Shown in pieces: positions 61-12,176 of a stretch of DNA of 64,000 nt. The position numbers were made by a program, and so were the translations under genes. Under the pieces are notes generated by a model that had not been told where the DNA came from, did no database searches, and worked only from the letters and a program-made list of their open reading frames with translations. How positions within the stretch are numbered: the stretch's first letter is position 1; every line of letters starts with the position of its first letter. Source of the stretch: Chloroflexota bacterium (GTDB lineage: Bacteria > Chloroflexota > UBA11872 > VXOZ01); assembly GCA_026710945.1 (NCBI GenBank), contig JAPOQA010000069.1, positions 1-64,000 of the forward strand, written 5' to 3'.

Positions 61-828
61 GTGCCGTTTGACAGGGTTTTTATCGGGGGCCGCGGCGGCT
101 CGGGCGCGCCCCCGCGCCAGGAATTGGAACGGCTGGTCGCATCTGTAGCTCGTGCCGGTAGCTTTCGCGCTGTGCGCTACGCATTCTTGGAGCAGGGCAA
201 GCCGGCGCTGTCGGCCGTGCTCGAACAGTGTCTCGCCGCAGGGGCCCGCCGCCTCCTGGTGGTGCCGGGTCTCGTGCCCATGGATCGCACGCTGCGCTGG
301 TGGCTGCCCCTCGCGCTGCGCGACTGGCTGCGCGAACATGCGGATGCTGACGTGGAGGTCGCGCTCGCACCGCCGTTAGGCGATAGCGCCCACCTGGCAG
401 ACGCCTTTAGCGCTGCCGTCATGGATGCTCGCTCCTTTACGGATGTGCGTGAGGATCCCACGATAGAGGAGCGGCGGCGCTCCTGGAATCACTTACCCTC
501 CCATCGGCATCATGTGCTCCTCTGCAGCGGACCGCGCTGCACGCTGGAGAATGCCCCGGCGCTGTGGGAGTATTTCGAGGCGAAGGTCAGGGAATGCCGG
601 TTGCGAGGCAAGCAGCGCGTGATGATGGTCCGCACCGGCTGTCTTTATCCCTGTGATCTCGGTCCGATGATGGTGGTGCATCCCGACGGCACATGGTACG
701 GCGGCGTGGACGAGACTGCCGTGGACCGCATCGTGGCGGAACACATCGTGGATGGCGAAGTGGTGCAGGAGTATGCGTGCACTCCCGGTGCACGCCAGCG
801 CACCAAGACGAGCTTTGAAAGCGGCTAG
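61..828 (+). CDS. CbiX-like domain fused to 2Fe-2S thioredoxin-like ferredoxin
   Basis: Residues 1-125 resemble the CbiX/SirB sirohydrochlorin chelatase fold (LLVVPGLVP, then APPLG followed by LADAF). Residues about 150-245 form a thioredoxin-like [2Fe-2S] ferredoxin with four cysteines at 155, 160, 194 and 198 (LLCSGPRC and GCLYPC), then the typical HPDGTWYGGV tail. CbiX-type chelatases insert cobalt or iron into sirohydrochlorin, and a ferredoxin partner is known in some cobalamin operons. The usual N-terminal GHGS histidine is replaced (IGGRGGS) and the second metal-site histidine region reads VPMDRTLRW, so catalysis is doubtful. The GTG start is uncertain because the frame is open to position 1, so the 5' end may be incomplete. 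No other cobalamin gene is visible here. Confidence 0.75.
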   Translation: MPFDRVFIGGRGGSGAPPRQELERLVASVARAGSFRAVRYAFLEQGKPALSAVLEQCLAAGARRLLVVPGLVPMDRTLRWWLPLALRDWLREHADADVEVALAPPLGDSAHLADAFSAAVMDARSFTDVREDPTIEERRRSWNHLPSHRHHVLLCSGPRCTLENAPALWEYFEAKVRECRLRGKQRVMMVRTGCLYPCDLGPMMVVHPDGTWYGGVDETAVDRIVAEHIVDGEVVQEYACTPGARQRTKTSFESG

Positions 829-913
829 GTCTTCACCGCGCGCGCGCGTCCTATGCATTGCGAAACGCAGAGCTTACCCTTTCTTTGCGCCTTGGCGACT
901 GCTGCGCTTTCCT

Positions 914-1729
914 CTACCGTGATGGTTTCCGGCAGCGGAGGTGGAGGGAGCAGGCGATAACGCGGGTGGCGGCGAGGCTGGGATAGATTGCGATGGACTC
1001 GTCACTGGCGTACGGCTCGGCGCTCTCTTCGATGACGAGACCGGCTGTGGCTAGCATGTTCAGCCATGTGCTCAAGGTGTGGAAGTAGCGCGGGATGCGG
1101 AATTTCTTGTAACGCTCCTTCAATTCGTCAGGCGCCGAGCCGAAGATCCACTCCTCGATGGTGCCTTGCTCCGTCTTGAAATAGTCTCCGCACTCCATAG
1201 CGACGCGTCGCCCCTCTTCATCGAGCACCCACTTGAAGCGGGGTGTCATGAAGCAAGGGTGAAGAATCGAGAACTGGAAGAAGCCGCCCGGCTTCAAGAC
1301 GCGCGCCACTTCCCGGATAGCGCGGTCCTGGTCCGGCACGTCCATCATGCTCATGGTGGCCATGACAAAGTCGAAGCCGGCGTCGGCCAGAGGCAAATCC
1401 ACTGCGCTGGCGCGCAGATAGGTGATATCTAATGGCTCTTCCGTCTCTTGCTCCTGGGCATAGTCCACGAAGCGGCTGGAAATATCCAAGGCGGTAAGAT
1501 GCGCGCCGCGTTGTGCGACCAAGCGGGTGTTGTGTCCCTCGCCGCAGCCGACGTCAAGCCCCTGCAGCCCCTCTACGTCAGGCAGCATCTCCATGTAGGC
1601 CGGCGTGTTGATGTGGTCGCGGTACTTGTCGTAGCCGAGGCGGGTGAGCGTGGTCCAGGCTTCGGCGTTGTCATCCCAGAGGTCGCCGACTGCGCGGTGG
1701 TCGAGGACTCTCTCGTTCTCGGACGTCAT
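914..1729 (-). CDS. class I SAM-dependent methyltransferase
   Basis: A 271-residue protein of the Methyltransf_11 type. The SAM-binding motif I reads LDVGCGEG at about residues 58-65, followed by an acidic residue at the end of strand 2 (ALDIS) and motif II/III regions (FDFVMATMSMMDV, then LKPGGFFQFSILHP). It would transfer a methyl group from SAM to a small molecule; the substrate cannot be read from the sequence. The ATG is well supported by a GGAGGAG ribosome site eight bases upstream. It stands alone: its plus-strand neighbour converges with it and repeats lie upstream. Confidence 0.8.
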   Translation of the reverse strand: MTSENERVLDHRAVGDLWDDNAEAWTTLTRLGYDKYRDHINTPAYMEMLPDVEGLQGLDVGCGEGHNTRLVAQRGAHLTALDISSRFVDYAQEQETEEPLDITYLRASAVDLPLADAGFDFVMATMSMMDVPDQDRAIREVARVLKPGGFFQFSILHPCFMTPRFKWVLDEEGRRVAMECGDYFKTEQGTIEEWIFGSAPDELKERYKKFRIPRYFHTLSTWLNMLATAGLVIEESAEPYASDESIAIYPSLAATRVIACSLHLRCRKPSR

Positions 1730-1869
1730 GGATTCTCCTCCAGGGCCGTGCCTCCACTGCGGTCAAGAAACACAGCGCGCGTTGAGCGCCGCTCTGCTCC
1801 GGTAGCGCAGGATTGAAACCTGCGTGAACCTGGTTGAGAGACACCTCAAGGTTGTGCCTTACTCTTGTG

Positions 1870-2410
1870 CGACCAGGCGGGGGACAAGCCCCCGCGCTAC
1901 GCTGGATATTCTGTGGCAGGTAGGGGCGGTTCGCGAACCGCCTCTACTCGGTGCGCCGTCGGTAAGAACTGCGGTGGATGCTCTTGTGACAGGTGGGGAC
2001 GGTTCGCGAACCGCCCCTACACGCTGCACCGTTGGTAAGAACAAGACTATTCAGACCAGCTGTCGGGAGCGCTCTATTTCTGAGAACGGCATCTTATACA
2101 TGCAGCGAGGCGCGTCTTACGAGCATATCACAGGCGGGACACGACAGCCGGGCAAGAGCGTAAGAGCCGGAGGAAGCGAGATACTTATTCTCCATTCACG
2201 TAGGGAAGGACTGCGGAGATTCCTTTAGGACTTCTCGTTCTGATGCGGGGGGCAAGTCCCCGCGCTGCGGTGGATGCTCTTGCGGCAGGTAAGGTTGGTA
2301 CGCGGCCTCTACTCGGTGCGCCGTGGGTAAGAGCTGCGGTGGATGCCCTTGCGGCAGTTAAGGGCGGTTCGCGAACCGCCCCTACACGCTGCGCCGTCGG
2401 TAAGAACGAG
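1870..2410. repeat. block of two palindromic dispersed repeat families
   Basis: The roughly 690-base gap between the methyltransferase and the flippase carries no convincing gene. It holds two copies of a 24-base palindrome (1877-1900 and a variant at 2245-2267; arms GCGGGGG and CCCCCGC around ACAAG, then GCTAC). It also holds three clear copies of a second palindrome centred on GGTTCGCGAACC (about 1923-1947, 1995-2020 and 2361-2384) plus a decayed copy near 2291-2315. A shared spacer (gcggtggatg then ctcttgtgac or a variant) separates units, so the block looks like a composite that grew by duplication. Confidence 0.75.
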
Positions 2411-2416
2411 ACTCTT

Positions 2417-3988
2417 CTAAGTTCGCGCGCCACGCAGGGCACTCCAGAAGCGTGCGATGTCTTCGCGCGGCAGGGCCCCGAGAGCGATTACCAGGCCAAG
2501 ATAAACGAATCCCGCTAACGCCATGCTCGGCAGTGCAGGGAGAGAACTCGTGAACCACGCAACAGCAAACATGCCAACGCCGGCCAGCAACGGTCGCCAT
2601 CCAGTGCTGAGAATTGGGATTATGATCTCCCTGCGGCGCGCGATGACGAAAAAGGGCGCCAGGAGTACCAGCTCGGAGAGCACCGTCGTCACCGCCGCGG
2701 CCGCGTAACCGTACTGCGGCACGAAGATGATGTTTGTTACCAGGTTGAATGCGGTGGCGAGCGCAAAGGCGATAGCGATCCATTTCTGTTGGTCAAGGGC
2801 AATGAGGACGTACTGTGTGATTGCATTGACATAACTCAGCGGAAGGAACCAGATGAGTATGGCAAGGGCGGTGGCCCCATGGGGCAGGAACTTGTCGCCG
2901 CCGATCACCCAGATAAAGGAAGTGGCGTACCAGCTAAAGCAGACTGTGCTGCCGACGGCGAGGACGAGCATGAATTGCAACGCCTTGGTAAAGATACTCT
3001 GGAGAGCAGCACGGTCGGTGGGGGCGATCCGTGAGAGCGCCGGGAAGAGCGCAAACACGAGCGCCGAGGGCAGCAGGGCAAAGGCTTCAACATACTTATA
3101 CGCCGCTCCGTAGTACCCAACTTCCGTAATATCCCGTGTCATCGTCAACACCTGTATGTCGATGCGGAAGAAAACGATGTTGAGCAACGCATTGAGCATC
3201 AGCGGCACGGACGCCAGCATGAGCGTGCGCGCCAGTTGCCCGTCCCAGGGCGCGCGGGAGGTGCCTTCGTGAGGGAGCGCCCGGAGCAGCACGAAAGCGG
3301 TGACGACGTTGGCGATGAGCGCTGTTACGGCTAGTCCCACGTAACCCCAACCGAGAGCGATTGCCACTATGCCCAAGCCCACCGTGAAGAGTACCGTAGC
3401 GATCTGCACGAGCGCTGTGTAGTCCATGCGCTCGCGGGCGGCAAAGAGGGAACTGGCCGTACCGGCGGCGTTTGCCGGGATGAGCGCTACCGCGAGGAGA
3501 CCCGCCGTCAGGATGGTGTTTGCCGGCGCGATGTCCACATACCAGATGCCCGCCATGATGAGGATCACGACAGGGATAGCGGCAATTGAGAGCAACAAAC
3601 GGATGCGCTGCACAACCACAACATATGCCGAGGCAGCATCGGGGCGGCGGCTTACTTCCCGCGTCAGCAGCACGCCCAAGCCGAAGTCTGTGAGCGGGCC
3701 GAAAAAGCCGATCAGGTTGACGGCATGGGCATAGTAGCCGTAGTTTTCCAGACCAAGCACACGGAGGTAGTACGCGGCGAATACCCACATAAGGCCGCGC
3801 GCAATGACCATGGCCAGCAACGGTACGAGCGCGTTGCGGGCTATGCGGCGGAGAAATACCGGCCCCGCGTGGACTGCGGTTTCTGCCGAGACGGTACGTC
3901 CGGCCAGCCACCAGAACATGAGCAGCGCCAGCGACGTCAATGCCGCGCCACTGCCGAGAATGACCGCGAGGGGGATTTGCTGGATCAT
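2417..3988 (-). CDS. Wzx-type oligosaccharide flippase (MOP superfamily)
   Basis: A 523-residue integral membrane protein with about 13-14 hydrophobic segments, the length expected of polysaccharide/lipid-linked oligosaccharide flippases (Polysacc_synt family). Residues 60-115 (AAYYLRVLGLENYGYYAHA, then FGPLTDFGLGVLLTREVSR) match the conserved N-terminal region in which LGLxxYG and DFGL recur. It would move lipid-linked glycans across the cytoplasmic membrane during surface polysaccharide synthesis. No glycosyltransferase or polymerase gene is nearby, so this is an orphan copy. It starts 16 bases after the end of mazF and may share its transcript. Confidence 0.8.
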   Translation of the reverse strand: MIQQIPLAVILGSGAALTSLALLMFWWLAGRTVSAETAVHAGPVFLRRIARNALVPLLAMVIARGLMWVFAAYYLRVLGLENYGYYAHAVNLIGFFGPLTDFGLGVLLTREVSRRPDAASAYVVVVQRIRLLLSIAAIPVVILIMAGIWYVDIAPANTILTAGLLAVALIPANAAGTASSLFAARERMDYTALVQIATVLFTVGLGIVAIALGWGYVGLAVTALIANVVTAFVLLRALPHEGTSRAPWDGQLARTLMLASVPLMLNALLNIVFFRIDIQVLTMTRDITEVGYYGAAYKYVEAFALLPSALVFALFPALSRIAPTDRAALQSIFTKALQFMLVLAVGSTVCFSWYATSFIWVIGGDKFLPHGATALAILIWFLPLSYVNAITQYVLIALDQQKWIAIAFALATAFNLVTNIIFVPQYGYAAAAVTTVLSELVLLAPFFVIARRREIIIPILSTGWRPLLAGVGMFAVAWFTSSLPALPSMALAGFVYLGLVIALGALPREDIARFWSALRGART

Positions 3989-4004
3989 GAACCTGCAGGG
4001 TTCA

Positions 4005-4346
4005 TCACTGTAAGAGCGCGTTGATCTTGCCTAGGACCTCGCTAACGACTTGTGGAGAAGCCTGGCAGGCAAATTGAGCGCGTATTACCCGCCAGTCGAG
4101 GCTCTTGACCTGGTCGGCGAGCACGACACCGGTGATTTCGCCGGTAGGAGGAAGCATGACCTCAAAGGGGTAGCCCTTGACTGTAGACGTAATTGGGCAA
4201 AATAACCCTAGGCCGGTCTTCTCGTTGTAGGCCAAAGGACTCAAAACCAGGGCGGGACGGTGACCGGCCTGTTCGCGCCCGGATTGAGGAGTGAAGCGCA
4301 GCCAGACAATCTCCCCTCTGGCAGGAACATAGTCAGCACCTACCAT
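4005..4346 (-). CDS. mazF: MazF/PemK-family mRNA interferase toxin
   Basis: A 113-residue protein with MazF family hallmarks: an N-terminal RGEIVWLRFTP strand, the GREQAGHRPALVLSP segment, the CPITSTVKGYPFEV segment and the GVVLADQVKSLDW segment (compare LCDQVRSID in characterised MazF). MazF cuts mRNA at short sequence motifs when freed from MazE. The ATG overlaps the 3' end of mazE by seven bases, which indicates translational coupling. All regions expected for an intact toxin are present. Confidence 0.88.
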   Translation of the reverse strand: MVGADYVPARGEIVWLRFTPQSGREQAGHRPALVLSPLAYNEKTGLGLFCPITSTVKGYPFEVMLPPTGEITGVVLADQVKSLDWRVIRAQFACQASPQVVSEVLGKINALLQ

Positions 4347-4579
4347 TCCTCATTGCCTTGGATCGGGCCGGTATCCTGTTCGGAGTGGAGATTGTCGTCC
4401 GTCACCTGATCCAGCATGTCGGCAAGGTTATAGGTCTCCTTGCGCAGGACAACGTGATCGCCACGCGAGATGATCTCGATTGCAGATCCCTCTCGAACGC
4501 CCCACTGTTGCGCAATTGCCTTAGGAATGCGAATGGCTAGACTGGTACCCCATTTGGATATGTGCGAGTTTCTGCCCAC
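4340..4579 (-). CDS. mazE: MazE-like AbrB-family antitoxin
   Basis: An AbrB/SpoVT-type DNA-binding N-terminus (ISKWGTSLAIRIPKAIAQQW, then REGSAIEI) is followed by an acidic tail that would bind and neutralise MazF. I chose the GTG at 4579 (79 residues) because a GGGGAGG ribosome site lies a few bases upstream; a longer reading from an upstream ATG would place that site inside the gene. A run of alternating T and A at about 4596-4615 just upstream probably holds the -10 region. Proteins of this family usually repress their own promoter with the toxin. Confidence 0.85.
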   Translation of the reverse strand: MGRNSHISKWGTSLAIRIPKAIAQQWGVREGSAIEIISRGDHVVLRKETYNLADMLDQVTDDNLHSEQDTGPIQGNEEW

Positions 4580-4727
4580 GGGTGCACCTCCCCTCATATA
4601 TATATAATATATATCCAAGCCAGCGAATCGTCAACAGAAAGACTTTTGTAGATGGCAGACTTGCTGTGGGCCTACCCACTTCTCAAATGGGAATTGCCAC
4701 CCCAAGCAGAGGAATTACAACAGAGGC

Positions 4728-5084
4728 TCAACCCCCTTGAGGGAGGCCTTCCTCGAGCGGATAGCCGTCTTGCTGCCAGCCAACGATGCCGGGTCCAAGG
4801 TTGTAGAGGTCCTCCAAACCCATGGCGGCGGCGATCTCGCAAGCAACCTGGCTACTCTGGCCGACTTCGCAGACGAAGATGATCTTGTCTTCGGCAAGGA
4901 ACTCCCACGGCTTTTGCAGGAGTTCGGGCAACGGCGCCAAGGTGGAATCAGGAATGTGCGCTTTGGCGAACTGGTTGGGCATGCGCACGTCGATTACCTG
5001 GTAGTCGCCGCTATCGATCATCTGTTTGGCTTCCGCACTGTCGACTGTGCCAAAGGGAATGTCGCTATCAATTTGCTGCGCCAT
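4728..5084 (-). CDS. single-domain rhodanese-like protein
   Basis: A 118-residue rhodanese fold: the VIDVRMPNQFAKAHIPDS segment (DxR and the conserved HIP) and an active-site loop with the persulfide cysteine at residue 72 (CEVGQSS). The family moves sulfane sulfur, but this loop lacks the arginine usual at its end (CxxGxR), so substrate preference may differ. It is transcribed away from the ABC importer at 5260, sharing a 150-base AT-rich divergent intergenic region with it. Confidence 0.8.
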   Translation of the reverse strand: MAQQIDSDIPFGTVDSAEAKQMIDSGDYQVIDVRMPNQFAKAHIPDSTLAPLPELLQKPWEFLAEDKIIFVCEVGQSSQVACEIAAAMGLEDLYNLGPGIVGWQQDGYPLEEGLPQGG

Positions 5085-5141
5085 CGAGAGCCTCCGGAAA
5101 GTGAAACGCTACCGCATACATTCTATACGAACCGGTGTAGT

Positions 5142-5205
5142 TTGACATCGGTTTCGCACTATGCTACTTAGTTAATATATTATCTAAATAAAGTTACTTA
5201 GTAAA
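5142..5205 (+). promoter_or_regulatory. candidate promoter and direct-repeat operator
   Basis: TTGACA at 5142-5147 is followed, after 17 bases, by a weak -10 (TACTTA). Two copies of TACTTAGTTAA/TACTTAGTAAA start at 5165 and 5195, exactly 30 bases apart (about three helical turns). The second sits in a small palindrome (TTAC and GTAA arms). The segment is far more AT-rich than its surroundings and lies between the divergent rhodanese and ABC operon, so it could bind a regulator of the importer. Confidence 0.35.
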
Positions 5206-5259
5206 GTTTAGATTGCACGTATACATTCGTGGTTGTTGCAGCGAGAGCGGGGCTTTTTC

Positions 5260-6075
5260 GTGGCGAGATTAGTAGCGCAAGACGTGGGCGACGTTTCCTC
5301 CCCAGAAGCACGGATCGTGCTCGAGGGAGCCTCAAAAGTGTTTGGCTCGCGGCACGGCGACACGGTGGCATTCCAGGACGTGAGCCTCTCTGTGCATGAG
5401 GGCGAGTTGCTCTGTGTGTTGGGGCCGAGCGGGTGTGGCAAGTCGACGCTCCTTAACATTGTTGCGGGACTAGATCAGCTTTCCCACGGGAGCGTCACTG
5501 TAGCGGGCGAACCGGTAGCAGGCCCACATTACACACGAGGCATGGTCTTTCAAGACTATGCGCTCTTTCCTTGGTTGACGGTTGAGGAGAACATCCGTTT
5601 CGGTCTCGACGCGCGCAGGTTCAAGGGCGACAAGCAGACGATTGTTGCGGACCTCGTGGCACTCACCCGCTTGCAGGGATTCGAACGGGCGCGGCCGGCG
5701 CAGCTCTCCGGTGGCATGGCGCAGCGCGTCGCATTGGCGCGCGCGCTCGCCAATCAGGTGGAGATCTTACTTATGGATGAGCCCTTCGGCGCGCTCGACG
5801 CTTTCACGCGCATGGAAATGCAAGAGGAAATCGTGCGCATCGTAAAGGCGCAACGCGTCACCACGGTTTTCGTGACGCATGACATTGACGAAGCGTTATA
5901 TGTTGGCGATCGTGTGGCAATCATGTCCGCGCATCCCGGCGAGTTGCGGCGGATCATCCCGGTGCCCATTGCTCACCCGCGCGATCGTGTTGACCCGCAG
6001 CTCGTGCGCTTGCGTGAGGAAGTCTTTACCGAGTTCAATCTCGCGCACACCCGCGAACAGTACTATCACATCTAG
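5260..6075 (+). CDS. NitT/TauT-type ABC transporter ATPase
   Basis: Contains all nucleotide-binding motifs: Walker A GPSGCGKST (about residue 55), Q-loop (VFQDYALFPWLTVEEN), signature LSGGMAQRVALARAL, Walker B ILLMDEPFGALDAFTR and the switch histidine in VFVTHDIDEAL. These match the SsuB/TauB/NrtD group that powers uptake of sulfonates, nitrate or thiamine-precursor-like solutes. I chose the GTG at 5260 (GAGCGGGG seven bases upstream); a TTG at 5233 is an alternative. It is the first gene of an importer operon that continues with the binding protein and permease. Confidence 0.88.
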   Translation: MARLVAQDVGDVSSPEARIVLEGASKVFGSRHGDTVAFQDVSLSVHEGELLCVLGPSGCGKSTLLNIVAGLDQLSHGSVTVAGEPVAGPHYTRGMVFQDYALFPWLTVEENIRFGLDARRFKGDKQTIVADLVALTRLQGFERARPAQLSGGMAQRVALARALANQVEILLMDEPFGALDAFTRMEMQEEIVRIVKAQRVTTVFVTHDIDEALYVGDRVAIMSAHPGELRRIIPVPIAHPRDRVDPQLVRLREEVFTEFNLAHTREQYYHI

Positions 6076-6326
6076 GGACTTTCAAATAATGCCGTACGTA
6101 CCTCAGCCTACTCGCAAGCTCTATCAGGGAGTTGTCCAGGAACTCTGTTGTAAGTCTACTATTGCGGTCATGCACCGGGGGGCACGTCCGTTGGGGAGCA
6201 GGCGACGCAATGAAGTCCTGCTCTTGGGGGTTGCGAGTTCACTGCTCGCGGCTACCGGAGCGATCCCAAGTACGAGGTTATCTTGCAGAACAGTAGAAAT
6301 AGACCCACTCTAAGGGAGAACTGAAA

Positions 6327-7565
6327 GTGTCAATGCAGATTACGCGGGCGCAGTTTCTGAAAACGCTTGGCGCAGTGGCTCTCGGCGCTGTTGCCAGTCC
6401 GCTGCTCGGCGCCTGCGGCGGTGACGAAGAAGAAAGCGCGAGTGGCGGGCCGGTGAGCCCCTCAAAGGTCGCGGACATACCCGTGAAAATTGGCTACTTG
6501 CCGATTACGGACTCCACGCCGCTCACGCTTGGATATGCTGGCGACTACTTTGCCAATGAGGGCTTGAATGCTGAAAAACCCGCGCTCTTCCGCGGCTGGT
6601 CGCAGCTTGCCGAAGCGTTCATGGCGGACCAGGTGAATGTGGCGCACTTTCTGATGCCGATGACGGTATGGATGCGCTACGGCATAGGCTTTCCCGTCAA
6701 AGTGGTTGCTTGGGACCACATCAATGGCTCGGCGCTGACCGTGCATCAAGAGGGCGGTATTGATAGCATCAAGGACTTGGGTGGCAAGCAAATTGCCGTG
6801 CCGTTCTGGTATTCGATCCACAATGTCGTCTTGCAGATGGCACTGCGCCACCACAACCTAGAGGCCGTCATTCAAGACCGCAATCGAGAGCTCGCCAGCA
6901 ATCAGGTGAATCTCTTCGTGATGGCGCCGCCGGACATGCCGACTGCACTTGGTAACCGATCGATAGACGGCTATATCGTGGCGGAGCCATTCAACGCTGC
7001 CGGTGAGTTGCTCGCAAACGGGAAGATTATCCGGTTTACGGGTGACATTTGGAAGGACCATGCGTGCTGCGTGGCGGTGCTGAGCGAGAAATACATCGAT
7101 GAGAACCCAGAGTGGGCGCAGCGTGTGCTGAACAGCATTGCCAAAGCTCAGCTTGGGGCGCTCAAGGACATTCCCGGTACGGCGCAGCTTCTGTCGAAGG
7201 ACGGCAGTGGACTCCTGCCGCAGGCCGCCAATGTAATCGAACGTGCCATGAGCAAGTACGATTTAGAGACCTATGGCCCGCAGGGCACGAATGCCATTCA
7301 CCATCCGGAGTGGGGCGCGTCACGGATTGGCTTCCAGCCGTGGCCGTATCCGACCTATACCATAGAGCTCGTGAATCAAATCAAGCAGACGAAGGTGGAA
7401 GGCGACACTAGTTTCTTGGGCGATCTCTCAGGCGATCACGCGGCGGAGGATTTGGTAGAGTATACGTTGGTTAGAGAAGCCTATAACGCCGCTGGCGGCC
7501 CTGCCGCGTTCAACGTTGCGGAAGAGCAAGCGTTCGAGCGCAAGGAGATCATCGGCATTGAGTGA
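6327..7565 (+). CDS. NitT/TauT-type substrate-binding lipoprotein
   Basis: A 412-residue protein with an N-terminal signal and lipobox (SPLLGAC), so the mature protein starts with a lipid-anchored cysteine. The body is an NMT1/SsuA-like periplasmic-binding fold (KIGYLPITDSTPLTLGYA, then AVPFWYSIHNVVLQMAL). It would capture the solute for the ATPase and permease on either side. GTG at 6327 and ATG at 6333 are both possible starts; an AAGGGAGA site is just upstream. The ligand cannot be deduced; sulfonates, nitrate, cyanate or aromatic acids are all handled by relatives. Confidence 0.85.
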   Translation: MSMQITRAQFLKTLGAVALGAVASPLLGACGGDEEESASGGPVSPSKVADIPVKIGYLPITDSTPLTLGYAGDYFANEGLNAEKPALFRGWSQLAEAFMADQVNVAHFLMPMTVWMRYGIGFPVKVVAWDHINGSALTVHQEGGIDSIKDLGGKQIAVPFWYSIHNVVLQMALRHHNLEAVIQDRNRELASNQVNLFVMAPPDMPTALGNRSIDGYIVAEPFNAAGELLANGKIIRFTGDIWKDHACCVAVLSEKYIDENPEWAQRVLNSIAKAQLGALKDIPGTAQLLSKDGSGLLPQAANVIERAMSKYDLETYGPQGTNAIHHPEWGASRIGFQPWPYPTYTIELVNQIKQTKVEGDTSFLGDLSGDHAAEDLVEYTLVREAYNAAGGPAAFNVAEEQAFERKEIIGIE

Positions 7566-7569
7566 GGCC

Positions 7570-8433
7570 ATGCGCACGGAAGGACGGCTGGCCGAACCCG
7601 CTTGCGACGATAAGCGCTCCGGCTCAGCGACGGCGAGGAGCGTTTCGGAGCCGGCCGCGAGCCGTTGGTGGGTGCAAGTACGCAGCATAGGCCTACCAGT
7701 CATAGGCTTCCTCGTCATCCTGCTCTTCTGGCAGGTGCTTACGGGCGGTCTGCTGACTGACTCCGGCATCGTGATGGCGTTCCAACCTCGCAACGCCTTT
7801 CGCGAGCTCGTGGGCTTCTTTGTCAGCGGTGTCATTTACTCCCACATCGTTGCAAGCTTAGAGCGCATTGGGTTGGGATTGGCCCTAGCGGTTGCAATTG
7901 GGGTGCCGATTGGCGTCATCATCGGCCATTACCGGACTGCCGAACGCGCATCTTCGCTCGCTTTCCAGTTCATCCGCATGATTTCGCCGTTGTCTTGGAT
8001 GCCGATTGCGATCATCGCGTTTGGTGTAGGGAGCAATCCCGTCATCTTCTTGATTGCAATTGCCGCGGTGTGGCCGATGATCATCAATACGGCTCATGGT
8101 GTGAGCAGTCTGGACCAGCGTTGGATTCGGGCAGCGCGCACCCTGGGCGCCAACGAGTGGAAGCTTGTGCGCATGGTCATCCTGCCTGCGATTGTCCCGG
8201 ACATGCTAACGGGTCTCCGGTTAGCAGTGGGTCTTGCGTGGGTCGTCTTGGTGCCCGCGGAGATGTTGGGTGTTTCCGATGGCCTGGGCTACTACATTCT
8301 GGATACACGCGACCGCTTCAACTACGGTGAACTCATGGCCGTCATTCTCATTATTGGCGTTATCGGCTATGCGTTGGACCAGCTCATCCGCTCGCTCCGC
8401 GTGCACGTCTCTTGGGACCAGGAGGAGCGCTAA
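7570..8433 (+). CDS. NitT/TauT-type ABC permease
   Basis: An inner-membrane permease of the SsuC/TauC family with about six hydrophobic segments and the cytoplasmic EAA loop (AARTLGANEWKLVRMVILPA) that docks on the ATPase. It starts at ATG 7570, four bases after the binding-protein stop; an upstream ATG in frame would overlap that gene by 50 bases. The first 35 residues are hydrophilic. With the two preceding genes it makes a complete three-gene importer. Confidence 0.87.
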   Translation: MRTEGRLAEPACDDKRSGSATARSVSEPAASRWWVQVRSIGLPVIGFLVILLFWQVLTGGLLTDSGIVMAFQPRNAFRELVGFFVSGVIYSHIVASLERIGLGLALAVAIGVPIGVIIGHYRTAERASSLAFQFIRMISPLSWMPIAIIAFGVGSNPVIFLIAIAAVWPMIINTAHGVSSLDQRWIRAARTLGANEWKLVRMVILPAIVPDMLTGLRLAVGLAWVVLVPAEMLGVSDGLGYYILDTRDRFNYGELMAVILIIGVIGYALDQLIRSLRVHVSWDQEER

Positions 8434-8473
8434 ACGCATTGTCCGAGATGGTGCTTGATTGTTGCGCTAAAGA

Positions 8474-8497
8474 GCGGGGGACAAGCCCCCGCGCTAC
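8474..8497 (+). repeat. 24-bp GCGGGGG/CCCCCGC palindromic repeat
   Basis: A copy of the same palindrome seen at 1877-1900. It lies 40 bases past the permease stop and can form a stem of seven G-C pairs, so it might act as a weak terminator between the importer and the FAD oxidoreductase. Confidence 0.7.
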
Positions 8498-8606
8498 AGG
8501 TAGTCAATGAAGAATTCGCTGGCTCTGGCAAGCGAATTGCAATCAAGTCCGGTCGCGATTTGCCGTTTCCGGATGGTTCCGGCAAGTAACTAAGCTCTGA
8601 GATTGT

Positions 8607-8640
8607 CCCCTCTCCCTCTGGGAGAGGGCTAGGGTGAGGG
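8607..8640 (+). repeat. CCCTCTCCC/GGGAGAGGG inverted repeat
   Basis: An inverted repeat with arms CCCCTCTCCC and GGGAGAGGG followed by GGGTGAGGG. Its last bases lie just upstream of the FAD oxidoreductase ATG (8646) and supply the purine-rich stretch that could serve as its ribosome site. Confidence 0.65.
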
Positions 8641-8645
8641 TCGTC

Positions 8646-10349
8646 ATGGAAGTGCCTTATGATGTTCACACCACCGATGTCCTCGTAATCGGCGGCGGGC
8701 TGGCGGGTTGCTGGGCTGCGATTGCGGCCACGCGGCAGGGCAGCCGGGCGTTGGTAGTGGACAAGGGATTCGTGGGAGGGTCCGGCTGTAGCGTCTTCGC
8801 GGGTGGCGTGGTGCTCTACCTAACGCCGGATGACGATCCCGCAGACTTTGTGCGTGAACATTGCCGCGAGAGTGAGCTTCTCATAGACCCGGCGTGGGTG
8901 GAATGGTTGGTGCAGGCCAACTACGAGCGAATTTCGGAATTAGATGGCTGGGGTGCCCCTTTTGACCGCCATGAAGACGGATCCCTTCACCGCCGCCTCA
9001 TCTACGTAGGTTCGCGCGAGACGGTCTGGCGGCTTGGCTTGGACAGCGTCGAGTTGATGAAACTCATGCGCAAGCAGGTCTTGCGCACCAAGCAGGCGAA
9101 AATCCTCGATCATGCCGCAATCGTGAAGCTTCTCGTCCAGGACGGTCGAGTTGTCGGCGCGGTGGGCATCCGGCGGCAGGATGAGCGGCTCTGCCTGATT
9201 CAGGCAAAGTCCGTGGTGCTGGCAGCGGGAGGCTGTGCGTGGAAAGGGACGCACTTCGGCCACGACATGCTCTGTGGCGAGGCATATAAGCTCGCATGGG
9301 ACGCTGGCGCGTCCCTAATGAATATGGAGTATGCCAACGGCTACATTGCCACCAACACTCGCTTTGATAGCCATGGACAGTGCATTCTCGCTGCCATAGG
9401 CGGCAAGTACTTGAATGGAGAGGGTGAACCGTTTCTCGGCAAGTATTCGGATAAGGTTCCCCCGGCAATTCACGTCATCGCCCGCGGTATGGCATCCGAA
9501 ATTCGAGCTGGGCGCGGGCCGATTCAGCTTGACCTCTCCGCAGTTCCCGGCACAGATCGAGAAATGTGGTTGCACGCTTTCAAGCACATCGCGGAACTCG
9601 CCCGTCGTAGCGGGCAGGACCTTTTTGCTGAGCGCACGCAATGGCATCCGGGATTCAACGGTTCCGTGTCGGGCTCTGCGGGAATCCATATAACTGATAC
9701 CTCAATGGCTACTCGCGTGCCCGGTCTGTACGTTGCGGGAGATGCGGCCACACGCGGCTACGTGGTAGGCGCATCCAGCGGCATCACGTTTCTCAATCTC
9801 GCTTGGGCGAACGCGAGCGGCTTTGCCGCGGGTGAGGGCGCGGGGAAGTTTGCACAGGGCGTTGCTGGGGATGAGATTTCTGCTGCGAAAGCGGAGGATG
9901 CCCTGGCGGAGGCGCAGCGACCCATGGAGCGCGAGAACGGCCTGCTCCCCGATGTTGTTTACGGTCACCTGCAGACCCAGGCCATGCCAACGGAAGTAAA
10001 TATCTTCCGTGAAGGAGAGCGCATGCAACGGGCACTTGCGCACGTGCGGACTCTGCAGCGGGAGGCCGTGCCACGCCTCTTCGCGCCGGACTTCCACGAA
10101 CTCGTCAAGTGCTATGAGGTCGAGGCAACCGCCCTGACAACGGCGCTCATGTACGAGGCAGCGCTCAAGCGGACGGAGAGCCGGGGGTGGCACTACCGTG
10201 AAGACTATCCTCAGCGAGACGATAGTGGCTGGTTACGGTGGATAATCGCGGAGCCGAATGCGAGTAGTGAGCCGATCTTTCGCTACACTCCCGTACCTCG
10301 AGACCGGCTAGAGAGGTTGGGAATTCTTGAACCAGCGGCGGCGGTGTAG
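8646..10349 (+). CDS. FAD-dependent fumarate reductase/AprA-like oxidoreductase
   Basis: A 567-residue flavoprotein of the succinate dehydrogenase/fumarate reductase/adenylylsulfate reductase alpha superfamily. It shows an N-terminal FAD-binding Rossmann motif (DVLVIGGGLAGCWAA), a central SVVLAAGG segment, and the C-terminal flavin loop GLYVAGDAATRGYVVG. The ATG at 8646 is preferred over a GTG at 8634 that falls inside a repeat. It follows the ABC importer and is followed by a two-cluster ferredoxin (10663), a flavoprotein plus ferredoxin pairing like AprAB. A role in oxidising or reducing the imported compound is inferred; no other sulfate-reduction genes are present. Confidence 0.82.
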   Translation: MEVPYDVHTTDVLVIGGGLAGCWAAIAATRQGSRALVVDKGFVGGSGCSVFAGGVVLYLTPDDDPADFVREHCRESELLIDPAWVEWLVQANYERISELDGWGAPFDRHEDGSLHRRLIYVGSRETVWRLGLDSVELMKLMRKQVLRTKQAKILDHAAIVKLLVQDGRVVGAVGIRRQDERLCLIQAKSVVLAAGGCAWKGTHFGHDMLCGEAYKLAWDAGASLMNMEYANGYIATNTRFDSHGQCILAAIGGKYLNGEGEPFLGKYSDKVPPAIHVIARGMASEIRAGRGPIQLDLSAVPGTDREMWLHAFKHIAELARRSGQDLFAERTQWHPGFNGSVSGSAGIHITDTSMATRVPGLYVAGDAATRGYVVGASSGITFLNLAWANASGFAAGEGAGKFAQGVAGDEISAAKAEDALAEAQRPMERENGLLPDVVYGHLQTQAMPTEVNIFREGERMQRALAHVRTLQREAVPRLFAPDFHELVKCYEVEATALTTALMYEAALKRTESRGWHYREDYPQRDDSGWLRWIIAEPNASSEPIFRYTPVPRDRLERLGILEPAAAV

Positions 10350-10499
10350 TTTTTTATGCGCCCACAGCGCCTCCAGGACGGTTTGTCAACCGGTGTGACA
10401 CCGCACAAGGCGCCATGTGGTTTGAGAATGCTGATTAATGTATTTTGGATAACAGGCTATGTGCCTTGCCAAGATGGTGTGGGCCTATCTCGCCAAGAA

Positions 10500-10523
10500 G
10501 CGGGGGACAAGCCCCCGCGCTAC
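10500..10523 (+). repeat. 24-bp GCGGGGG/CCCCCGC palindromic repeat
   Basis: Another copy of the 1877-1900 palindrome. The rest of the 313-base gap 10350-10662 shows no convincing gene. The gap separates the flavoprotein from its likely ferredoxin partner. Confidence 0.7.
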
Positions 10524-10662
10524 GGCTTGTTGGAGGGGGATTAGGCGTACTATCGGCAAGACAATGCTAATCGAACCCAGATGCTTGGTGGAATGTGGGG
10601 TCTGGGCACGCGGCTCAGGTCGCTTCGCGGCCCAATACTGTACGTAGTGGAGATCTCTAGTA

Positions 10663-10899
10663 GTGGCAATTGAAAAAGTGTACGAAGACCTCTGTATCGG
10701 CTGCACCCTTTGCGTAAAAGTCTGCCCGTTAGACGTTCTGCGTATGGATGATAAGAAGAAAGCCTATATCAGGTACCAAGATGACTGCCAGTCTTGCTTG
10801 TTGTGCGAGATCTATTGCCCAACGGATGCCATCTACGTTGGACCGGAGAATCCCCGCGAGGTGCCATTCACCATTGTGGAATTAGCACAGGTAACCTAA
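10663..10899 (+). CDS. 2[4Fe-4S] ferredoxin, likely partner of the FAD oxidoreductase
   Basis: A 78-residue protein with two complete cluster motifs: CIGCTLCVKVCP at about residues 11-22 and CQSCLLCEIYCP at about 43-54. Each set supplies three cysteines to one [4Fe-4S] centre and one to the other. It resembles the small beta subunit of AprAB-type enzymes and free bacterial ferredoxins. The GTG start at 10663 has a GTGGAG-like site upstream. Its position after the flavoprotein suggests it carries electrons to or from that enzyme. Confidence 0.85.
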   Translation: MAIEKVYEDLCIGCTLCVKVCPLDVLRMDDKKKAYIRYQDDCQSCLLCEIYCPTDAIYVGPENPREVPFTIVELAQVT

Positions 10900-10950
10900 C
10901 GGCTCTGTGGCGCCGCCGGCATTTTTCATTGCGCAGAGGCGGGTATTGCT

Positions 10951-11035
10951 CCCTCTCCCTGGGGAGAGGGCCGGGGTGAGGGGGAAGTGTAACGTCCCAG
11001 CAGGAGAACGCAGACGCAGGTTTGCAACCTGCGTC
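10951..11035. repeat. two short inverted repeats between ferredoxin and hydrolase
   Basis: 10951-10983 is a copy of the CCCTCTCCC/GGGAGAGGG family with a trailing GGGGTGAGGG. 11012-11035 is a near-perfect palindrome with arms GACGCAGGT and ACCTGCGTC. The second could fold as a hairpin, but no T-run follows it, so a terminator role is unproven. Confidence 0.6.
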
Positions 11036-11147
11036 ATTTCCCTATAATGTATGGCAATTGCGCGGATGTGGCTTGATTTTCAAGCAAACGTGTAGAATCA
11101 TTGAGCTTGGCGCATAGCTCTATCGGTTTGAAAAGGAGAACACGCTC

Positions 11148-12176
11148 GTGAGTGAAGCATTCGATTTCGATACGTACATCATGGCGCACTACGAGAAACA
11201 CCCCCCGCTGCTGCACTTTGCCGGCGAGAGTCGTGAGGAGTGGTACGTGTGGCAGCAGCAATTGCGGGCGCGGCTGCTTGACCTCATGGAGCCGTTTCCG
11301 GAGCAGGTACCGCTGGAGGCACGCGTCGTCGAGCATCGGGAGCAGTTTGGCGTCCATTACGAGAAAGTGGTGTACACTACTGCCGAAGACGTCCAGGTTC
11401 CGGCGTGGCTCTTGATTCCGGAGGATGTCGCGCAGCCGGCTCCCGGCATCATCTGCTTACACGGACACGGAATATACGGCAAGGATAACGTGGCGCATGT
11501 GGACTACGGTGAGGAAGATAGGGCCCGCGCGATCGAACGCGCTAACTATGACTACGGCCTGCAGCTTGCCAGGCGCGGTTTTGTGACCCTGTGCCCCGAC
11601 GCGCGGGGCTTTGGCGAGCGCAGTGAAGACTTCCGGCGCTACGGCAACCGCGACGGCTGCAACGTGAACGGCATCAAGACCTTCCTCTTCGGCATGAACC
11701 TGATGGCGCTCAACACCTGGGACGACATGCGGGGACTTGACTACTTGGCGAGCCGCCCGGAAGTAGACGCGGACCGGCTTGGTTGCATCGGCCTCTCGTT
11801 TGGCGGCACACGCGCAATGTACCTTGCGGCAGTGGATGAGCGGGTGAAAGCGGCTGACGTGGTGTGCTATTTGACGACCTTCAAGCAGTATGCGCTCACC
11901 CAGGGCAACTTCTGCGGATCGCAGTTCGTACCCGGCATCCTCAAGTACGCGGAAGTGGCCGATGTTTGCGGCTTAGTAGCGCCGCGGGCGCTCCTCATCG
12001 AGTCCGGCATACAAGACGGAGGCTTTCCGATTGCGGCCGCGCGTGAGGCGTATGCACACTTGGAAACCATCTACGCGGCGGCGCAGGTATCGGAAAGCCT
12101 CTGGCTCGACGAATTCGACGGCGGGCACGAGTTCAGCGGTGCCAAAGCCTTCGACTTCTTCAACGCCTACCTTTGA
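11148..12176 (+). CDS. alpha/beta hydrolase, dienelactone hydrolase-like
   Basis: A 342-residue alpha/beta hydrolase. The oxyanion region is ICLHGHGIYGKD, the nucleophile elbow is GLSFGG, and the likely acid and base are the Asp in ESGIQDGGF and the His in DGGHEF. This resembles acetyl xylan esterase/dienelactone hydrolase-like proteins found in large numbers in environmental bacteria. It probably cleaves an ester in the cytoplasm, since no signal peptide is visible. The start is supported by AAAAGGAG upstream. Its 3' end overlaps the convergent PRC-barrel gene by ten bases. Confidence 0.82.
   Translation: MSEAFDFDTYIMAHYEKHPPLLHFAGESREEWYVWQQQLRARLLDLMEPFPEQVPLEARVVEHREQFGVHYEKVVYTTAEDVQVPAWLLIPEDVAQPAPGIICLHGHGIYGKDNVAHVDYGEEDRARAIERANYDYGLQLARRGFVTLCPDARGFGERSEDFRRYGNRDGCNVNGIKTFLFGMNLMALNTWDDMRGLDYLASRPEVDADRLGCIGLSFGGTRAMYLAAVDERVKAADVVCYLTTFKQYALTQGNFCGSQFVPGILKYAEVADVCGLVAPRALLIESGIQDGGFPIAAAREAYAHLETIYAAAQVSESLWLDEFDGGHEFSGAKAFDFFNAYL

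Follow-up and report, generated by a model that had tools for sequence, protein, structure and literature searches.

Among the closest described systems are the asfRABC genes of Pseudomonas putida S-313 and Cupriavidus metallidurans CH34, in which a flavin adenine dinucleotide (FAD) flavoprotein, AsfA, and a 2[4Fe-4S] ferredoxin, AsfB, are encoded beside a NitT/TauT-type importer (PMC4267179, PMC2864759). In the published account, asfAB form a reductase/ferredoxin chain that supplies electrons to an oxygenolytic desulfonation when sulfate is limiting (PMC4267179). In the passages considered here, AsfA is termed a reductase and AsfB a ferredoxin, a mutant demonstrates their importance and no reaction is assigned, and asfA is nonetheless in use as a soil marker of aromatic sulfonate use. 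The locus described here is a related five-gene set at positions 5260-10899 of a 64,000-nucleotide stretch of Chloroflexota DNA (hereafter the window), which forms the beginning of contig JAPOQA010000069.1 (C69). The genome (G000, GCA_026710945.1) is 3.5 Mb in size and its assembly 98.4% complete, and its close relatives are Chloroflexota metagenome-assembled genomes, with isolate labels that hint at sponges. We give roughly even chances to the interpretation that the set is a conserved Chloroflexota cassette for the uptake and redox processing of a single small compound, which is probably an organosulfur one (sulfonate-like). Both the ligand and the reaction are predicted from sequence.

Conservation of the five-gene set

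As the initial annotation had observed, the importer, flavoprotein and ferredoxin genes follow each other on one strand; all five are intact, lie on the plus strand and end at 10899. The first codes for the importer ATPase of NitT/TauT type (5260-6075, GTG start at 5260, 271 amino acids; PF00005 (ABC_tran), 109.8 bits), the second for a substrate-binding protein of the NMT1_2 family (6333-7565, ATG start at 6333, 410 amino acids; PF13379, 138.8 bits) and the third for the permease (7570-8433, ATG start at 7570, 287 amino acids; PF00528 (BPD_transp_1), 91.9 bits). These are followed by the gene for an FAD flavoprotein that belongs to the fumarate reductase/AprA superfamily (8646-10349, ATG start at 8646, 567 amino acids; PF00890 (FAD_binding_2) and PF02910 (Succ_DH_flav_C)) and by the gene for a 2[4Fe-4S] ferredoxin (10663-10899, GTG start at 10663, 78 amino acids; Fer4 dicluster families). 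The ferredoxin aligns with AsfB-type ferredoxins but does not have their C-terminal tail.

The order ATPase, binding protein, permease, flavoprotein, ferredoxin is kept in all six loci of the window flavoprotein clade, which come from six separate genomes (G000, G001, G003, G004, G016 and G373; loci L010, L009 and L008 are those of G001, G003 and G004, respectively). The clade spans three Chloroflexota families, and its flavoproteins are 45-88% identical. Because the order recurs in every one of these loci and across three families, the set goes beyond chance, and the neighbourhood search thus upholds the earlier proposal that these genes belong together. Within the class, flavoprotein matches at E<=1e-50 were found in 5 of 41 genomes, comprising four of the six members of the genus and G016, from another family. 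Matches at E<=1e-45 occur in 14 of 400 genomes of the phylum. Of the nine matching genomes outside the class, G373 alone carries these five genes together in the regions examined. In G373 (L119, 2604-8468), an amidohydrolase gene (PF01979) and genes that look like carB and carA also lie 3' of the ferredoxin gene and share its orientation, and these were not noted in the other clade members.

Linkage to an importer is likewise common among AsfA-type pairs. Using distance and score thresholds that we set, NitT/TauT permease and binding-protein genes were found within 6 kb of the flavoprotein gene in 28 of 34 AsfA-type rows, in 6/6 window-clade loci and in only 3 of 42 other rows. The AsfA-type rows include one broken gene (L046) that is counted twice, and L123 was scored as linked though some of its permease matches are not on the flavoprotein's strand. 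Such pairs are therefore not rare beside importers of this kind; rarity there was what the initial annotation had named as speaking against its proposal. Genes for a luciferase-like monooxygenase (LLM), SfnB or TauD lie within 6 kb in 9 of the 34 AsfA-type rows, and none was found within this distance of the flavoprotein gene in any of the six window-clade loci. On plasmids, the neighbours annotated beside AsfA-type pairs include LLM oxidoreductases, SfnB, TauD, a sulfurtransferase and sulfate adenylyltransferase; the loci opened for the flavoprotein were 13 of 276 matching plasmid records, chosen for diversity, so fractions drawn from them are biased.

Placement of the flavoprotein

AsfA and AsfB of C. 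metallidurans CH34 correspond to Rmet_4334/5, among the genes of the second replicon (PMC2864759). Two flavoprotein matches are present in NC_007974.2 and only that at 928339-929808 has a ferredoxin beside it, and this protein is taken, by elimination, as CH34 AsfA. It shares 43-65% identity with full-length flavoproteins from Proteobacteria, Paenibacillus and Actinobacteria, in a comparison in which the Nostoc and Sphingobium rows are incomplete. The window clade is sister to the AsfA clade in three trees, with support values of 98/97 (52 rows), 100/98 (60 rows) and 98/99 (48 rows). In the 48-row tree, from which long branches were removed, this grouping recurs in 100% of 200 bootstrap trees. 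The three trees share overlapping rows; 8 rows were removed from the 60-row tree and 20 from the 48-row tree to shorten them, and L098 was left out because its protein is truncated. All AsfA rows sit on a long, fully supported stem that excludes the window flavoprotein, which is 29% identical to CH34 AsfA and 27-33% identical, over the alignment, to full-length AsfA-type rows. The initial annotation proposed a compound that is not yet known for this pairing of importer and enzymes. As the idea of an undescribed pairing, this is only partly right, given that the pairing is already that of AsfA/AsfB and their importer in P. putida S-313 and Cupriavidus (PMC4267179, PMC2864759) and that the flavoprotein is sister to AsfA.

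Other members of the superfamily were considered. The best NCBIfam scores of the flavoprotein are far below their cut-offs (TfrA, 206.8 versus 718 bits; adenylyl-sulfate reductase alpha, 136.4 versus 557 bits), as is its score with the adenylyl-sulfate reductase alpha model TIGR02061 (67 versus 641.75 bits). In aligned columns that were located by motif, and in SdhA and AprA residue numbering, the SdhA dicarboxylate residues H242, E255, H354 and R399 are absent, as are the AprA substrate-site residues N74, E141, W234, R265 and H398. The histidine for covalent FAD attachment is also absent and a glycine occupies its column. The sole residue kept among those compared is the superfamily-wide arginine (SdhA R286, AprA R317). 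The substrate residues of NadB are likewise missing, and other genes of this genome code for SdhA-like and NadB-like proteins, which fall with their E. coli counterparts in a tree. On the missing residues and the trees together we reject a succinate dehydrogenase or fumarate reductase (SDH/FRD), an L-aspartate oxidase (NadB) and a reductase of adenosine 5'-phosphosulfate (APS) or 3'-phosphoadenosine 5'-phosphosulfate (PAPS). The dissimilatory sulfur (APS-reductase) role that the initial annotation had thought unlikely is, on the TIGR02061 score and the absent AprA residues, very unlikely indeed.

A structure model of the flavoprotein, built from 17 sequences, has a mean predicted local distance difference test (pLDDT) score of 76.7 and a predicted template modelling (TM) score of 0.86. 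Its top fold match is the PAPS reductase alpha subunit of Methanothermococcus thermolithotrophicus (8a8o). However, the fold alone is not discriminating, because PAPS reductase, fumarate reductase and APS reductase match about equally (query TM 0.71-0.77). The M. thermolithotrophicus enzyme and AprAB resemble the window pair in superfamily, fold and FAD protein with a 2[4Fe-4S] partner, but the window flavoprotein does not have their substrate residues and branches apart from AprA and the M. thermolithotrophicus protein in all three trees. Thus, the label "AprAB-like" used in the initial annotation holds at the level of fold and superfamily and not beyond it. Two of the three importer-linked rows that are not AsfA-type, L099 and L100, represent a second family, which branches on the AprA/PAPS-reductase side. 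Their NitT/TauT-linked flavoprotein-ferredoxin pairs (L099, 7732-10359; L100, 7421-9217) score above the cut-off of NF006131 and keep the AprA N74 and H398 columns.

The nearest pairwise relatives outside the clade are flavoprotein-ferredoxin pairs located near UbiD-type decarboxylase genes in two other Chloroflexota loci (L120 and L121). As in the window, a ferredoxin gene adjoins the flavoprotein gene, and the flavoproteins are 37% identical to that of the window. Unlike in the window, UbiD genes are nearby and no importer was found within 6 kb. The pair in L120 also adjoins a second FAD_binding_2 protein.

Importer type and genome context

The nearest NCBIfam matches of the importer ATPase (ntrCD, 234.1 bits; SaoA, 233.3 bits) and of the permease (SaoP, 169.2 bits) are under cut-off, and membership in the Sao system was rejected since all three importer proteins fall far under the Sao cut-offs. 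The sulfonate-importer cut-offs are also unmet (SsuA_fam, 96.2 versus 163.5 bits; taurine model, 41.1 versus 304.25 bits). E. coli SsuABC and TauABC belong to the same transporter family, but the window binding protein is only 19-23% identical to SsuA and TauA. The importer is also of another type than that of asfRABC, with 17-19% identity to three Asf-linked binding proteins (17-23% over all five comparisons). The AlphaFold model of the binding protein has a mean pLDDT of 35.6. The closest solved relative is 3un6, a zinc-bound structure.

Much closer relatives are found in a widespread cassette that carries an acyl-CoA-dehydrogenase-type gene. The window binding protein is 46-50% identical to those of this cassette from Synechococcus, Marinobacter, Variovorax, Thermomicrobium and Methylocystis and, in the same range, from Pseudosulfitobacter, Bartonella, Roseomonas and Paraburkholderia. 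Across 15 binding proteins 72 residues are invariant, including H129, H163, H243, C245 and C246. The gene order ATPase, binding protein, permease, together with a nearby gene of acyl-CoA-dehydrogenase type, recurs in all eight annotated plasmid loci opened and among the open reading frames of Paraburkholderia caribensis (9/9); the annotated loci are 8 of 306 plasmid records matching the binding protein and were chosen for diversity, which biases these fractions. An OsmC, CMD or DUF4242 gene accompanies eight of the nine cassettes, and none accompanies that of Bartonella. SfnB is the best NCBIfam match, well under cut-off, for four of the six acyl-CoA-dehydrogenase-type enzymes scanned, and of the remaining two, one matches other models and one matches none. 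In P. caribensis (L045, 10065-15591), genes for CMD, the acyl-CoA-dehydrogenase-type protein, ATPase, binding protein and permease are arranged in a row that also has an AraC-like regulator (judged by eye). Two AsfA-type clusters, at 842.7 and 856.4 kb, flank this cassette, which is located near 852 kb. Other sulfur-related neighbours are cysK on pANL and a rhodanese-type sulfurtransferase gene in Pseudosulfitobacter. The SrpI encapsulin, from the same strain as pANL, is reported to be induced by sulfate starvation, and the reference list of that report cites a paper on sulfur-regulated plasmid genes (PMC8049743).

The pANL cassette of Synechococcus elongatus and the window locus are alike in importer genes, gene order and binding-protein identity (46-50%), but the neighbouring flavoenzyme in the window is the AsfAB-like pair and not an acyl-CoA-dehydrogenase-type enzyme. 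None of the nine window proteins scanned (61 to 12176) is of the latter type. In the other window-clade loci the SfnB query alone was used and gave no match within 6 kb, a search that could miss distant acyl-CoA-dehydrogenase homologues. Thus, what appears to be new is that an AsfAB-like pair occupies the place of the acyl-CoA-dehydrogenase-type oxidoreductase in a widespread importer cassette. In G373, a DUF4242 gene (PF14026) is located upstream of the ATPase gene, as in pANL and Thermomicrobium, yet the flavoprotein-ferredoxin pair is present. Because the G373 binding protein groups with that of Thermomicrobium and not with that of the window, with modest support (91/94), one importer type has been combined with either enzyme, perhaps more than once.

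Genes expected to act with an Asf system are sparse in the genus. No luciferase-type monooxygenases (PF00296, the family to which SsuD belongs) were found in G000, G001, G003, G002 or G005, and all four matches in G004 are on one contig, C52. This contig also bears the strongest TauD match of G004 and is possibly contamination or otherwise foreign. All seven other AsfA-type or window-clade genomes or records tested have PF00296 matches (2 to 32 each). The sulfite/nitrite reductase family PF01077 was found in none of the six genus genomes, and 11 of 14 control genomes were positive. A single absence could be an assembly gap, but the pattern repeats across genomes. Because the monooxygenase (in three of four carriers) and sulfite reductase are missing, the Asf route as published cannot operate in full in this genus. 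Either the pair acts alone, or another oxygenase takes part, or the substrate differs. Five of the six genus genomes, cassette carriers and non-carriers alike, have a TauD-family gene, as does G016, and none was found in G373. PF01507 gave a weak match in G005 and one match in G000, a protein considered as CysH and rejected because it is DndC, encoded next to DndA. The DndC and DndA genes of the window's genome (L101, 997-3362, contig C7) are relevant to DNA phosphorothioation.

Several smaller elements surround the set. A 24-nucleotide palindromic repeat has seven copies in the window, six of them exact, where none is expected by chance (starts at 1877, 2245, 8474, 10500, 27266, 38061 and 42138). 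Exact plus-strand copies lie in the permease/flavoprotein gap (8474-8497) and in the flavoprotein/ferredoxin gap (10500-10523), and two further exact copies occur in L008 and none in L009, L010, L095 or L119. Since these two repeat-bearing gaps (~210 bp before the flavoprotein gene and ~310 bp before the ferredoxin gene) interrupt the set, a single transcript can only be inferred. Divergent from the importer, on the minus strand, is a gene for a single-domain rhodanese (4728-5084; PF00581, 58.2 bits), which has an equivalent in the same position in genus loci L008, L009 and L010 and might be a sulfur-handling partner in the genus only. Farther out, 61-828 codes for a fusion protein that combines a CbiX chelatase domain with a ferredoxin domain of the thioredoxin-like 2Fe-2S type. 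Downstream of the ferredoxin gene, 11148-12176 codes for an Abhydrolase_7/AXE1-type hydrolase, which is present in two tandem copies in L008 and L009 and does not adjoin the set in L010 or L095.

Proposed function and its alternatives

In the interpretation that we favour, the binding protein would deliver the compound to the permease and ATPase, and inside the cell the ferredoxin would pass single electrons to non-covalently bound FAD. The FAD enzyme would act directly on the imported compound, most simply by reduction at a C-S or S-O bond, and would stand in for the acyl-CoA-dehydrogenase-type oxidoreductase that accompanies the importer elsewhere. In the genus the pair would not feed a luciferase-type monooxygenase, because most genus carriers have none. 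Both the importer and the AsfA-type pairs have sulfur-linked neighbours, which favours a sulfur substrate. In addition, the combination of FAD with Fe-S clusters is that of PAPS and APS reductases, which rank among the top fold matches.

A number of observations weigh against this interpretation. In pairwise scores the UbiD-linked Chloroflexota pairs (341.7 and 335.2 bits, 37%) exceed every AsfA-type protein, of which the best reaches 230.6 bits. The stem of the AsfA clade is also long (1.3-1.4 in the three trees). For these reasons the flavoprotein is described as sister to AsfA and not as AsfA. The columns of SdhA H354 and R399 in the pocket hold N and S in the window flavoprotein, where AsfA has E and mostly F, which leaves room for a substrate other than an arylsulfonate. 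The binding protein differs from those linked to Asf, and the rhodanese gene was not found in L095 or L119, outside the genus. G016 and G373 do have LLM genes, and the TauD-family gene in G000 has a counterpart in G002, which has no cassette. Finally, with no sulfite reductase in any of the six genus genomes, the usual way of assimilating a sulfite product would be closed.

The same pairwise kinship to UbiD-linked pairs suggests aromatic acids and makes it possible, although we think it improbable, that the pair performs redox chemistry on a compound without sulfur (aromatic, nitrogenous or metal-bearing) that the importer takes up. The resemblance of the importer proteins, under cut-off, to Sao (Sec-assisted organometallic) and nitrate importer models fits such a compound, as do the invariant Cys-Cys and histidines of the binding protein and the zinc-bound 3un6 as closest solved relative. 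However, the sulfur-linked neighbours of both the importer and the AsfA-type pairs speak for sulfur. Of the organic sulfur, nitrogen or aromatic substrates proposed in the initial annotation, an organic sulfur compound remains the best guess.

A canonical Asf system, in which the pair is an electron chain for a desulfonating oxygenase encoded elsewhere, such as the TauD-family protein, appears unlikely. The sister relationship to AsfA, the published reductase/ferredoxin chain (PMC4267179), the TauD-family gene of G000 and the LLM genes of G016 and G373 are in its favour, but G000, G001 and G003 have no LLM gene, G373 has no TauD, and LLM, TauD and SfnB are all absent within 6 kb in the six clade loci. 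Moreover, TauD enzymes depend on 2-oxoglutarate and work without a ferredoxin. Far less probable is an assimilatory APS/PAPS reductase of the AprAB or M. thermolithotrophicus type. Although 8a8o is the best profile and fold match and the partner is a 2[4Fe-4S] ferredoxin, the five AprA residues are not conserved, the branch is separate, sulfite reductase is lacking in all six genus genomes and the only PF01507 match of G000 is DndC. Scarcely credible is a paralogue of fumarate reductase, succinate dehydrogenase or L-aspartate oxidase that lies beside the importer by chance; the Pfam family and high-ranked fold matches would allow it, but the four dicarboxylate-binding residues and the FAD-binding histidine are missing, SdhA-like and NadB-like proteins are already encoded by other genes of the genome, and the linkage to the importer is conserved.

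A broader and rather doubtful extension of the favoured interpretation is that AsfAB-type pairs in general work on their own, as flavoenzymes that directly cleave or reduce organosulfur compounds once these have been imported, and do not serve SsuD as an electron chain. In the Chloroflexota, on this view, one of these pairs would have taken over from the acyl-CoA-dehydrogenase-type enzyme of the widespread importer cassette. This would liken AsfAB-type pairs to APS and PAPS reductases acting on their own substrates and, if true, would constitute an oxygenase-free organosulfur route in bacteria that have neither luciferase-type monooxygenase nor sulfite reductase. A carrier lineage without the supposed partner monooxygenase and sulfite reductase makes the accepted role of AsfAB directly testable, and an importer shared by two alternative flavoenzymes provides two independent handles on one ligand. 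The cassette also bears on what these uncultured Chloroflexota take up.

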